A stretch of 64,000 bases of DNA from Pasteurella multocida subsp. multocida OH4807 (GTDB taxonomy: Bacteria; Pseudomonadota; Gammaproteobacteria; Enterobacterales; Pasteurellaceae), in NCBI GenBank assembly GCA_000973525.1, contig CP004391.1, positions 1,388,001-1,452,000 of the forward strand. Direction: 5' to 3'. Both the position numbers and the translations under genes were made by a program. Below are positions 19,568-23,621 of the stretch, one piece after another; the stretch's first letter is position 1, and each line of letters starts with the position of its first letter. The notes under the pieces are model-generated. The model ran no database searches. It was not told where the DNA came from and saw nothing but the letters and a program-made list of their open reading frames with translations.

Positions 19568-21532
19568 ATGAAAGGTTTTACATTTATAGATTTATTCGCA
19601 GGTATAGGTGGTTTTCATATAGCTATGGAAAGTTTAGGAGGAAAATGTGTTTTCGCATCAGAAATTGATGCTTATGCTCGTCTTACTTATGAACATAATT
19701 TTAAAAAAATAAATCCTGAATTATTCAGTAATGATTTATTTAATGATGATATCCGAAAAATAACTCCATCTGAACTACCTGATTTTGATGTATTATGTGC
19801 TGGATTTCCTTGTCAACCATTTAGTCAAGCGGGATATAAGAGAGGCTTCGAAGATACCCATCGTTCTGAAAGAGGAAATTTGTTTTTCAATATCGTTGAG
19901 ATTTTAGAAGCAAAACAACCCAAAGCATTTTTTCTGGAAAATGTGCGGGGAATTATTAATCATGATAATGGAAAAACCTTTAAAATTATTCAAGATATTT
20001 TAAGAAATGAATTGGGTTATAGTTTTTATTTTCAGATTATCAAAGCTTCTGATTTTGGTTTACCCCAACTAAGACCTAGAGTTTTTATGATTGGTTTCAG
20101 AAATGAACAATTATTGAGTAGTTTTTCTTTTCCTCAACCTATACCATTAAAATTCACAATGTCTGATGTCTGGGGGGGAAAGTGTGATCGAGATATTGGG
20201 TATACATTAAGAGTAGGTGGTCGAGGATCTAAAATTGGTGATAGAAGAAATTGGGATCAATATTTAGTTGATGGGAAAATTCGCCAAATAATGCCAGAAC
20301 AGGCTAGAAAAATGCAAGGCTTCCCTGATAGTTTCGAATTTCCAGTACCCAAATCACAGGCAATGAAACAGCTAGGTAATAGTGTCGCAGTCGATGCAGT
20401 AAGAGCTTGTGGAGAAAGAATGATTGAGTATATGAACTTTTTGGATCATATCAACAGAGAAGATGAAATGAAACAAACTAAAAATAAAGGTGAATGGACA
20501 GAACTTTATACTTTCTTAAAGTTATTAACAGATCAAAGAATACATTTAGCGGATAAAGATCTTAATTCAAAACAAGATTTCTTCAAAATAAATAAAGTAA
20601 CAACTCTTAATATTCAGCAGGACTGTTATTTGTCAGAAAATGATGTTGTTAAAGTAGAAAATAAAAAAACTGGTGAAGTGCATCGAATAAAAACATCTTC
20701 ATTCTTAAATCAAACTGTATTAAATACGCTTGCAGAATATATAAGAAATGGACATAAAACCTTTGATATTCCTGAATTTCATATTATTAGTAGTCAGTTA
20801 GGAGTTACTCTCATTAAGGGGGGAACCTCTAATCAAAAAGCGGATATTGTATTAGATATAGAGAATGAAACTGAGCAATATAAAGAGCACGGATTTGATA
20901 TTAAATCTTATTTAGGTAACTCCCCAACTCTACTAAATGCTTCTGGAAATACTAATTTTATTTATAAAGTAAAGAATTTATCTAGTGATTTATTAGATGA
21001 AATCAATGCTATTGATACCAGAACTAAACTAAAAGACCGTATATCTACTATATATCAAAAAGGTGGTTATTTAGAATTTGAACGAGTTGAACAAACAACT
21101 ATGGGTTATAATCTTGATTTAGTTGACAGCATTATGCCTAGACTAGTAGCAGAGATGTTGCTTGAATTTCACAAAAATAGAACAAATACTCTTGATGAAA
21201 ACTTAAATTCTATTTTTAAACGAAGCCCAACCTTGTTTATCACAGATTTAGACGGCTTAAGAATTAAAGTCAAAAAACTACTAGTAGCGATTTTACTGGG
21301 ATTTTTTGCAGGCACAAAATGGAATGGACAATATCTTGCGAAGGGCACAATCGTAGTAAAAAACGATGGTTCGCAACTTGCTTATCATATAACTGATTTG
21401 GAAAGTTTAGAAAATTATCTGTATGAAAATATTCGCTTTGATACACCTTCTACAACTCGCCACAGATATGGTTCATTGATTGCAGAAAATAGAGAACTTT
21501 ACTTTAAATTAAATCTACAGCTTAGATTTTAA
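19568..21532 (+). CDS. Fused C5 cytosine methyltransferase - HpaII-family restriction endonuclease
   Basis: 654 residues in one frame. Residues 1-300 are a complete C5 methyltransferase: SAM loop DLFAGIGG (8-15), catalytic Cys82 in PCQPFSQAG, ENV (124-126), QLRPR (about 167-171), a short target-recognition region, MQGFPD and QLGNSVAV (268-275). Residues 301-654 match the HpaII-type endonuclease family: KGEWTELYTFLKLL, a PD-(D/E)XK-like pair D426 and D444-I-K446, and SPTLLNASGNTNFIYK. HpaII cuts CCGG, so that target is inferred. In the HpaII system the two enzymes are separate proteins. A GAGAAG five bases before the ATG of Met301 could also give free endonuclease. The gene is AT-rich, without uptake words, and ends 19 bases before glyS. 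Confidence 0.9.
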   Translation: MKGFTFIDLFAGIGGFHIAMESLGGKCVFASEIDAYARLTYEHNFKKINPELFSNDLFNDDIRKITPSELPDFDVLCAGFPCQPFSQAGYKRGFEDTHRSERGNLFFNIVEILEAKQPKAFFLENVRGIINHDNGKTFKIIQDILRNELGYSFYFQIIKASDFGLPQLRPRVFMIGFRNEQLLSSFSFPQPIPLKFTMSDVWGGKCDRDIGYTLRVGGRGSKIGDRRNWDQYLVDGKIRQIMPEQARKMQGFPDSFEFPVPKSQAMKQLGNSVAVDAVRACGERMIEYMNFLDHINREDEMKQTKNKGEWTELYTFLKLLTDQRIHLADKDLNSKQDFFKINKVTTLNIQQDCYLSENDVVKVENKKTGEVHRIKTSSFLNQTVLNTLAEYIRNGHKTFDIPEFHIISSQLGVTLIKGGTSNQKADIVLDIENETEQYKEHGFDIKSYLGNSPTLLNASGNTNFIYKVKNLSSDLLDEINAIDTRTKLKDRISTIYQKGGYLEFERVEQTTMGYNLDLVDSIMPRLVAEMLLEFHKNRTNTLDENLNSIFKRSPTLFITDLDGLRIKVKKLLVAILLGFFAGTKWNGQYLAKGTIVVKNDGSQLAYHITDLESLENYLYENIRFDTPSTTRHRYGSLIAENRELYFKLNLQLRF

Positions 21533-21551: not shown

Positions 21552-23621
21552 ATGACAACACAAAACTTCCTCGCCGAGATCGGCACTGAAGAGCTGCCAC
21601 CGAAGGCGCTCAAGAAATTAGCGACTGCATTTGCAGAGAACGTGGAATTAGAGTTAAACCAAGCGGGTTTAACCTTTGACAAAGTAGAATGGTTTGCGGC
21701 GCCACGTCGTTTAGCTGTGAAAGTGTTAGCTTTAGAGACTGCACAACCCAGCAAAGAAATTGAAAAACGTGGTCCAGCGGTGTCTGCAGCATTTGATGCG
21801 GAAGGCAAGCCAACTAAAGCTGCAGAAGGTTGGGCGCGTGGTTGTGGAATCAGCGTTGAACAAGCTGAACGTATCGCGACTGATAAAGGCGAATGGTTAG
21901 TTCATCGTGCCACTATCGAGGGTCAACCCACCAAAAACTTACTCAAAGATATCGTTGCAAATGCGTTAGCGAAATTACCTATTCCAAAACCAATGCGTTG
22001 GGCGGACAAAACGGTTCAATTTATTCGTCCCGTTCATACGGTAACGATGTTACTTGGTGATGAATTAATCGAAGGCGAAATTTTAGGTGTCGCAAGTGGC
22101 ACAACGATTCGTGGTCACCGTTTCCTTGGTGAGCGTGAATTCCAAATTTCACACGCGGATCAATACCCTGTGCTATTAAAAGAAAAAGGCTCAGTTGTGG
22201 CTGATTTCAATGAGCGTAAAGCGTTGATTTTGGCAAAAGCACAAGAAAAATCGACCGCACTTGGTGGCGTGGCTGATATTGAAGAAGACTTACTTGATGA
22301 AGTGACTTCACTTGTGGAATATCCAAATGTCTTGGCGGCGAAATTTGAAGAACGTTTCCTTGCTGTACCTGCGGAAGCGTTAGTTTACACCATGAAAGGC
22401 GACCAAAAATATTTCCCAATTTATGACAAAGACGGAAAATTATTACCGCACTTTATTTTCGTGTCGAACATCAATCCAGAAGATCCAAGCAAGATTATCG
22501 AAGGAAATGAAAAAGTGGTTCGCCCACGTTTAACTGATGCGGAATTCTTCTTCAAAACCGACTTAAAACAACGTTTAGAAGATCAATTACCACGTTTAGA
22601 AACCGTATTATTCCAACAACAACTTGGCACATTACGCGATAAAACAACTCGCATTGAGCAACTTGCTGGCGAAATTGCGAAACAAATCGGTGCAGACGAA
22701 GCGAAAGCAAAACGTGCAGGCTTATTATCAAAATGTGACCTAATGACCAATATGGTATTTGAGTTTACGGATACGCAAGGAGTAATGGGTATGCACTATG
22801 CACGTCACGATGGTGAAGATGAAGAAGTCGCGGTTGCATTAAACGAGCAATATATGCCACGTTTCGCAGGCGATGAATTACCAAAATCACCAGTGGCAAG
22901 TGCAGTTGCCTTAGCAGATAAATTTGACACATTGACGGGGATTTTCGGTATTGGTCAACAGCCAAAAGGTAGCGCTGACCCATTTGCTTTACGTCGTGCG
23001 GCATTAGGGGTGTTACGTATTCTCGTTGAGAAAAACTTACCACTTGATCTTGAAGAAATGGTGAAAAAATCAGCCGCACTTTTCGGCAACAGACTCACCA
23101 ACGCAAATGTTGTAGAAGAAGTTGTCGACTTTATGCTTGGTCGTTTCCGCGCGTGGTATCAAGACGAAGGCATTGCAGTGGATGTAATCCAAGCGGTATT
23201 AGCTCGTCGCCCTACTCGCCCAGCGGATTTTGATGCGCGTGTACGTGCAGTTTCTCACTTCCGTACGTTAGATGCGGCAGAAGCATTAGCGGCAGCAAAT
23301 AAACGTGTAAGCAATATTTTAGCGAAAGTAGAAGGTGAATTACCGGCAACTATTGATGTTGCATTATGCGTTGAAGCAGCAGAGAAAGTGTTAGCAGAGC
23401 AAGTGCTTGCATTACAAGCTGAATTAGCACCATTATTTGCTAACGGTGAATATCAAGCAGCATTAGACCGTTTAGCAGCGTTGCGTGAGCCTGTGGATAC
23501 GTTCTTCGATAATGTCATGGTGAACGCCGAAGATCAAAAATTACGTCAAAACCGTCTAGCAATCCTAAACAATCTACGTAATTTATTCTTACAAGTTGCT
23601 GATATTTCCTTATTACAATAA
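21552..23621 (+). CDS. glyS: Glycine--tRNA ligase, beta subunit
   Basis: 689 residues, the normal length for GlyS. It binds tRNA-Gly and works with GlyQ. The N-terminal [15 protein letters not shown] is the family hallmark, and the C-terminal region has the HD-like and anticodon-binding domains. The codon choice and base composition match the backbone, in contrast to the AT-rich gene just upstream. The ribosome site (AAGAGA) lies within the 19 bases after the methyltransferase-endonuclease fusion, so part of its transcription may now come through that gene or from a promoter within it. Confidence 0.98.

Follow-up and report, generated by a model that had tools for sequence, protein, structure and literature searches.

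A predicted single-chain C5 methyltransferase and HpaII-type endonuclease from Pasteurella multocida, with CCGG as its likely target

The window, which is the whole stretch of 64,000 nucleotides of Pasteurella multocida subsp. multocida OH4807 that was analysed, carries on its forward strand a gene that probably encodes a complete Type II restriction-modification system as a single chain, directed at CCGG. The two activities, the exact target and the identity of the methylated cytosine are what we infer for it. Restriction-modification must protect ahead of cutting, and many of the solutions studied place the two functions in separate genes whose expression is timed. A single-gene solution, conserved and moved between phyla, would offer a clean test of how host DNA is kept safe by one polypeptide or by a gene that has a second start within it. 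CCGG recognition would also be shown to have been built from two methyltransferase lineages with one nuclease family.

The reading frame, its domains and its place

The list of open reading frames in the window has a single uninterrupted frame of 654 residues at 19568-21532 (+). A complete C5 methyltransferase followed by a full-length HpaII-like endonuclease had been predicted there, and Pfam finds both: PF00145 at 257 bits in two stretches, the best being residues 4-193, and RE_HpaII (PF09561) at 330 bits on residues 306-654, covering profile positions 1-359 of 359 (cut-off 25). The endonuclease domain searched by itself against PF09561, a check proposed with the original prediction, gives 332 bits against the same cut-off of 25 and again covers the whole profile, 1-359. 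The features are as follows.

19568..21532, + strand: M-R fusion ORF (C5 methyltransferase plus HpaII-type endonuclease), 654 aa, from Pfam and homologs
19568..20437, + strand: C5 methyltransferase domain, residues 1-290, with motifs I, IV (Cys82), VI (ENV), VIII (QxRxR) and X (GNSV), from Pfam
20183..20275, + strand: short target-recognition region, residues 206-236, TLRVGGRGSKIGDRRNW, common to solitary and phage-contig methyltransferases
20438..20482, + strand: hypervariable linker, residues 291-305, from the alignment of fused loci and the structure model
20468..20470, + strand: candidate internal start codon, Met301, five residues ahead of NKGEW
20483..21529, + strand: HpaII-type endonuclease domain, residues 306-654, from Pfam, with E309, E312, D426 and K446 invariant
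21552..23621, + strand: glyS, so named by us from its sequence, downstream of the fusion ORF

The C5 methyltransferase motif set (I, IV PCQ, VI ENV, VIII QxRxR, X GNSV, in our assignment of the numbers) is complete. DLFAGIGG lies at 8, FPCQPF at 80, ENV at 124, QLRPR at 167 and GNSVA at 270, so the Cys82, ENV and GNSV elements named in the original prediction are all present; NKGEW opens the nuclease at 306. The motif columns are kept across 40 aligned fusions. NCBIfam matched the methyltransferase, and none of its models matched the nuclease part. The closest solved relative of the methyltransferase half in a sequence search of solved structures is M.HhaI, and the same kind of search with the nuclease half returned nothing better than E 0.8. 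The window ORF is thus confirmed, as far as sequence can tell, as a real single-chain C5 methyltransferase and HpaII-type endonuclease.

In the nuclease half, N306, G308, E309, W310, E312, D426, K446 and S447 are invariant in 35 aligned nucleases, both fused and separate. Two of the three residues originally singled out, D426 and K446, are among them. The third, D444, is an aspartate in the window copy and a glycine in 51 of the 55 fused loci, and was discarded as a catalytic or family active-site residue. The structure model has a pLDDT of 93.8 over the nuclease domain and below 50 at linker residues 298-301. Foldseek alone, with an E cut-off of 0.001, gave no match to the nuclease model. In a structural second look the model (window 20483-21529) appears to resemble MspI and HinP1I, at 8-14% identity. 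The isoschizomers HpaII and MspI may, on this modelling, share a fold.

The GC content of the fusion gene is 31.2%, against 39.6% for the window, which is consistent with horizontal acquisition. Promoter- and terminator-like sites at the locus are no more numerous than in shuffles, and the only repeats are short, two-copy ones. Of the six genomes of the genus, this one included, the five congeners all have other genes in the slot ahead of glyS, with four different contents.

G107, L334 2-1327: dCTPase-type defence gene (522 bits, PADLOC), its start lying outside the stretch examined
G110, L336 358-1428: 356-aa gene, preceded at L336 212-259 by a 48-bp near-copy of the start of glyS
G106, L335 2477-2986: 169-aa gene
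G108 and G109, L337 and L338 2477-2857: related 126-aa gene

The slot looks like a hotspot for cargo or defence genes.

A fused family and its two methyltransferase lineages

A sequencing error joining two frames is excluded: the best 120 of 7997 scored homologs all have both Pfam domains, at 60-100% identity, with 119 of them longer than 640 aa, and fused loci recur across a scan of species. That scan, made in six frames with one genome per species, gave 80 loci, to which seven from whole genomes were added. The 87 were sorted into 59 with a methyltransferase in frame, 16 that lacked one under a motif rule, and 12 whose motif was unreadable or whose nuclease was too short. On re-inspection L029 and L056, both from the group of 16, proved to be in-frame fusions. 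The linker tests described below use 55 fused loci including the window, after removal of five loci that repeated sequences already present and of L101, a fusion unlike the others, and with broken or cut-off fused-type copies (for example L066, L069, L076, L077, L083, L085 and L086) set aside. The matches listed for the nuclease part as query include fused pieces and nuclease-only entries. Two of the latter, P0123 and P0128 (356 aa, 57-59% identity to the fused nuclease), have as first residue the methionine of the internal start; they are real free nucleases or else broken fusions.

PF09561 occurs in 8 of 140 Pasteurellaceae genomes (two fused, four separate, two remnants) and in 10 of 398 genomes of a Pseudomonadota sample, the present one counted. 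The remnants are HpaII-type nuclease pieces at L009, L010 and L011 in G018 and G012; L010 adjoins a Vsr-like gene. The fused nucleases come from records labelled Pseudomonadota, Bacteroidota, Cyanobacteriota, Campylobacterota, Altimarinota and Deferribacterota, many of them metagenome bins. Five plasmid and three phage records match 80% or more of the length of the fusion, with identities of about 36%. Those from plasmids carry an annotation as HpaII-family nuclease, to which four of the five add methyltransferase; those from phages are unannotated. Viral contigs searched with the nuclease query gave no confirmed relative. A Vsr-like gene adjoins some separate-gene systems (L003, L004 and L005); the flanking DNA examined at the 64 loci L024-L087 showed none, and Vsr had no match in the present genome.

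In the nuclease tree 44 fused rows form one clade (95/99), recovered in 92% of 200 bootstrap trees. The fusion is a conserved, old and widely shared family with one origin on that tree, and not unique to the window. The methyltransferases fall into two lineages. Separate-gene systems mostly have methyltransferases with a GGMGRERN recognition region, which we take to be M.HpaII-like, and L099, missed by that pattern, groups with them. The fused loci have a short TLRVGGRGS...DRRNW region wherever it is readable. In the methyltransferase tree the fused and separate-gene lineages are far apart, and solitary methyltransferases are intermixed with the fused ones. Two separate-gene cases, L094 and L102 (SAR86, on a long branch), fall on the short-region side. 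The deep order of the trees is unsure because of the long branches of L102, L099 and L094, and many of the sequences are from metagenome bins. The original prediction had set the single chain beside the two-protein HpaII system; simple stitching of an HpaII-like pair is ruled out for the methyltransferase half by its recognition region and by the methyltransferase tree. Two further arrangements were seen. At L094 (3136-5164, Amylibacter) a methyltransferase with the short recognition region overlaps a separate HpaII-type nuclease gene, which perhaps resembles the pre-fusion state. At L101 (2951-4753, Clostridiales) a methyltransferase of the other type is joined to an HpaII-type nuclease whose frame is then broken.

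Natural fusions of a C5 methyltransferase to an HpaII-type nuclease were not found described in print in the open-access literature searched, and the family is a variant, not previously found described, of the combined restriction-modification kind. The separate-gene HpaII-like systems (L003-L006, L012, L014, L088-L092), which presumably target CCGG, share its nuclease Pfam family and have the nuclease directly downstream of the methyltransferase gene. They make two proteins, with the longer GGMGRERN region in the methyltransferase, whereas the window has one chain and the short region. The fusion therefore lacks both the separate M and R genes and the recognition region of the HpaII system proper. 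The HpaII-type nuclease family cuts inside CCGG. Type IIC enzymes such as BpuSI, MmeI and BtgZI have both activities in one chain, as is expected of the fusion, here by architecture only. Most of them combine an N-terminal PD-D/EXK nuclease with a gamma-class methyltransferase and cut outside their site, and BtgZI has an alpha-class methyltransferase (PMC4081073). In BtgZI the order is methyltransferase first and nuclease last, as in the fusion, but in the fusion the methyltransferase is of the C5 class and the nuclease belongs to a family cutting within the site. In Type IIG, by definition, a gamma-class methyltransferase shares one recognition module with the nuclease (PMC4081073). The fusion falls outside that class, its methyltransferase being of the C5 class. 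Eco29kI has a C5-class methyltransferase and a GIY-YIG nuclease. Its engineered fusion, RM.Eco29kI, is described as fully functional (PMC3039593). Like the natural fusion, whose activity is predicted, it joins a methyltransferase to a Type II nuclease in one working chain; unlike it, RM.Eco29kI is man-made, has the nuclease first and targets CCGCGG.

CCGG as the likely target

Expected counts were calculated with the maximal-order Markov formula. The present genome has CCGG at 0.26 of expectation (137 observed, 519 expected, 464 kb sampled). The other fused carrier in Pasteurellaceae (G089) is at 0.11, and five fused carriers of a second family are at 0.09-0.21. These seven measured carriers include one with a shortened 523-aa fusion (G332), and one carrier (G409) was left out. 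Five non-carriers of the present genus are at 0.33-0.74. In the second family, same-genus non-carriers are at 0.29-0.37 (g145, four genomes) and at 0.98 and 1.06 (g190, two genomes). Carriers are therefore lower in CCGG than non-carriers within all three genera that have both states, the lowest non-carrier of the present genus (G106, 7 of 21) being measured on 21 expected sites. Within each family, though, some non-carriers are as poor. Among 19 Pasteurellaceae non-carriers the range is 0.10-1.23, with three (G013, G132 and G047) at or under 0.26, and among 12 non-carriers of the second family it is 0.00-1.16, with one below 0.26 (G289, 0 of 27 expected). Genomes without PF09561 may hold other CCGG systems. 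Separate-gene carriers are at 0.09, 0.73, 0.87 and 0.96 in Pasteurellaceae, three of the four not depleted, and at 0.11 and 0.20 in the second family; G016, with 611 bases only, was left out of the comparison. When the DNA around 61 fused-type loci, some of them broken, is pooled, CCGG is the scarcest of the 16 palindromic tetramers (55 of 429, or 0.13) and GGCC the second scarcest (0.22). In the pooled separate-gene loci CCGG ranks third scarcest, at 0.43. CCGG is the likely target of the fusion. The original prediction had drawn this target from the nuclease family, and depletion in the seven measured carriers makes it likely, although some non-carriers are equally poor in CCGG. Its statement that every tRNA-Val gene contains CCGG also holds: all four do, and they account for 4 of the 14 CCGG sites in the window.

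It is unlikely that the differing methyltransferase recognition region marks a change to another site which the nuclease followed. Besides that region, unlike the one in separate-gene systems, such a change could draw on the scarcity of GGCC (0.21 in the present genome) and on GAATTC. Many non-carriers are poor in GGCC as well, which makes CCGG the more informative tetramer. Of the palindromic tetramers compared, 16 for the present genus (against G107 and G108) and five for the other two genera, only CCGG is lower in carriers in all three genera, and GGCC overlaps. Very unlikely is a fusion that serves solely as a protecting or regulatory methyltransferase, with a nuclease domain inactive in its own strain. 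The aspartate at 444 of the window copy, where 51 of 55 loci have glycine, would fit an inactive nuclease, but the domain is full-length with all the residues invariant in 35 nucleases, and the depletion of CCGG suggests restriction pressure, past or present.

GAATTC is at 0.11 of expectation in the present genome (464 kb) against 0.56 in G107, and CATG is at 0.01 in G089 (140 kb), hinting at more restriction systems, present or past. The EcoRI family had no match in the present genome, but its control was also without signal. The genome has one further C5 methyltransferase (G000:C1:875333-876580, 432 aa), of another type. Deamination products were uninformative as to which cytosine in CCGG is methylated.

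Possible internal initiation and host protection

Near the end of the linker, an ATG occurs within 12 codons ahead of NKGEW in 44 of the 55 fused loci, against 9.4 expected from other segments of the same ORFs. Position -5 is methionine in 34 of the 55, whereas the commonest residue at any position from -11 to -6 occurs in 15 at most. The 11 loci without an ATG include several with non-start codons. Of nine clusters without methionine at -5, about 4.5 have an ATG at another codon of the stretch, where the fraction expected by chance is 0.16. A possible start lies near the same place in separate HpaII-like nucleases (MLTGNKGEW, MAITGNKGEW).

A synonymous-codon test that pooled all taxa, fixed the position at -5 and scored ties against the site gave no signal (mean rank 0.56). 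The loci were divided by taxon names into Shine-Dalgarno (SD)-using and other taxa after that result had been seen; the starts of flanking genes independently confirm a difference in SD use between the groups. In the SD-using taxa (28 loci, 24 with an internal start) the mean anti-SD energy at the internal start is -4.41, with an own-shuffle rank of 0.245. It is stronger than at flank-gene starts (-3.53, n=47) and at the ORF's own start (-2.69, n=17). For these taxa the Wilcoxon p is 0.0002 by locus and 0.006 over 10 clusters. In the other taxa (27 loci, 24 candidate starts) it is -1.01, with rank 0.456 and flank-gene starts at -0.35 (n=58), and the site ranks worse than the remaining in-frame ATGs (0.645, p 0.085). 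A second synonymous-codon test, in which ties counted half and the nearest start was used, gave rank 0.365 (p 0.016) in the SD-using taxa, where 96 control ATGs are at 0.564, and no signal in the other taxa (0.482). The Met301 site of the window has an anti-SD energy of -2.9, the ORF's own start being weaker (+0.4); it ranks 0.2 against other in-frame ATGs, and 0.375 and 0.42 against its own shuffles. Internal initiation thus appears supported for part of the fused family, with a weak signal in the present genome.

It is a serious possibility, somewhat short of probable, that one ORF gives two products, a free nuclease from internal initiation beside the M-R fusion, the two perhaps assembling together. 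The excess of ATGs, the methionine at -5, the anti-SD energies and codon control in SD-using taxa, and the first residue of P0123 and P0128 all speak for it. They have to be set against the null first test and the post hoc split, the ranks in the other taxa, the 11 loci without an ATG and the weak site in the window, and the internal ATG may be a relic of the nuclease gene before fusion. We tentatively suggest a natural class of fusion in which one frame gives, through a start retained in the linker, both a protecting-and-cutting fusion and a free nuclease. If so, the ratio of protector to cutter would be set by translation within one gene, and not by separate promoters or control proteins. 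The LysIME-EF1 endolysin works in the way proposed, though the protein is unrelated. An internal ribosome-binding site and start codon in its linker region yield a free C-terminal domain, as shown experimentally (PMC7098653).

For the self-contained single-chain system, the N-terminal C5 methyltransferase would methylate one cytosine in CCGG, and the C-terminal HpaII-type nuclease, on its short flexible linker, would cut CCGG lacking that methylation. The original prediction held that a single chain would need an internal means of putting methylation ahead of cutting; it did not foresee a second product. The simplest account of host protection on entry is that the methyltransferase acts alone as a monomer. 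For Type IIC chains, a monomeric stage that methylates without cutting is an idea stated in a review (PMC12707154). The scarcity of CCGG in the present genome, at about one quarter of expectation, would help, as would nicking of single strands in turn if the nuclease resembles MspI and HinP1I. Were the nuclease monomeric like HinP1I, the idea that a delay in dimer formation gives protection would fail. In part of the family, free nuclease made from the internal start may come in addition.

The neighbourhoods of solitary methyltransferases that share this recognition region gave no nuclease from which to read the specificity; plasmids had no match at E 1e-60. A viral contig (L104, 4983-5870), a close match, carries a methyltransferase with this region, beside which no nuclease was recognised by eye; it possibly protects phage DNA against the fused system.
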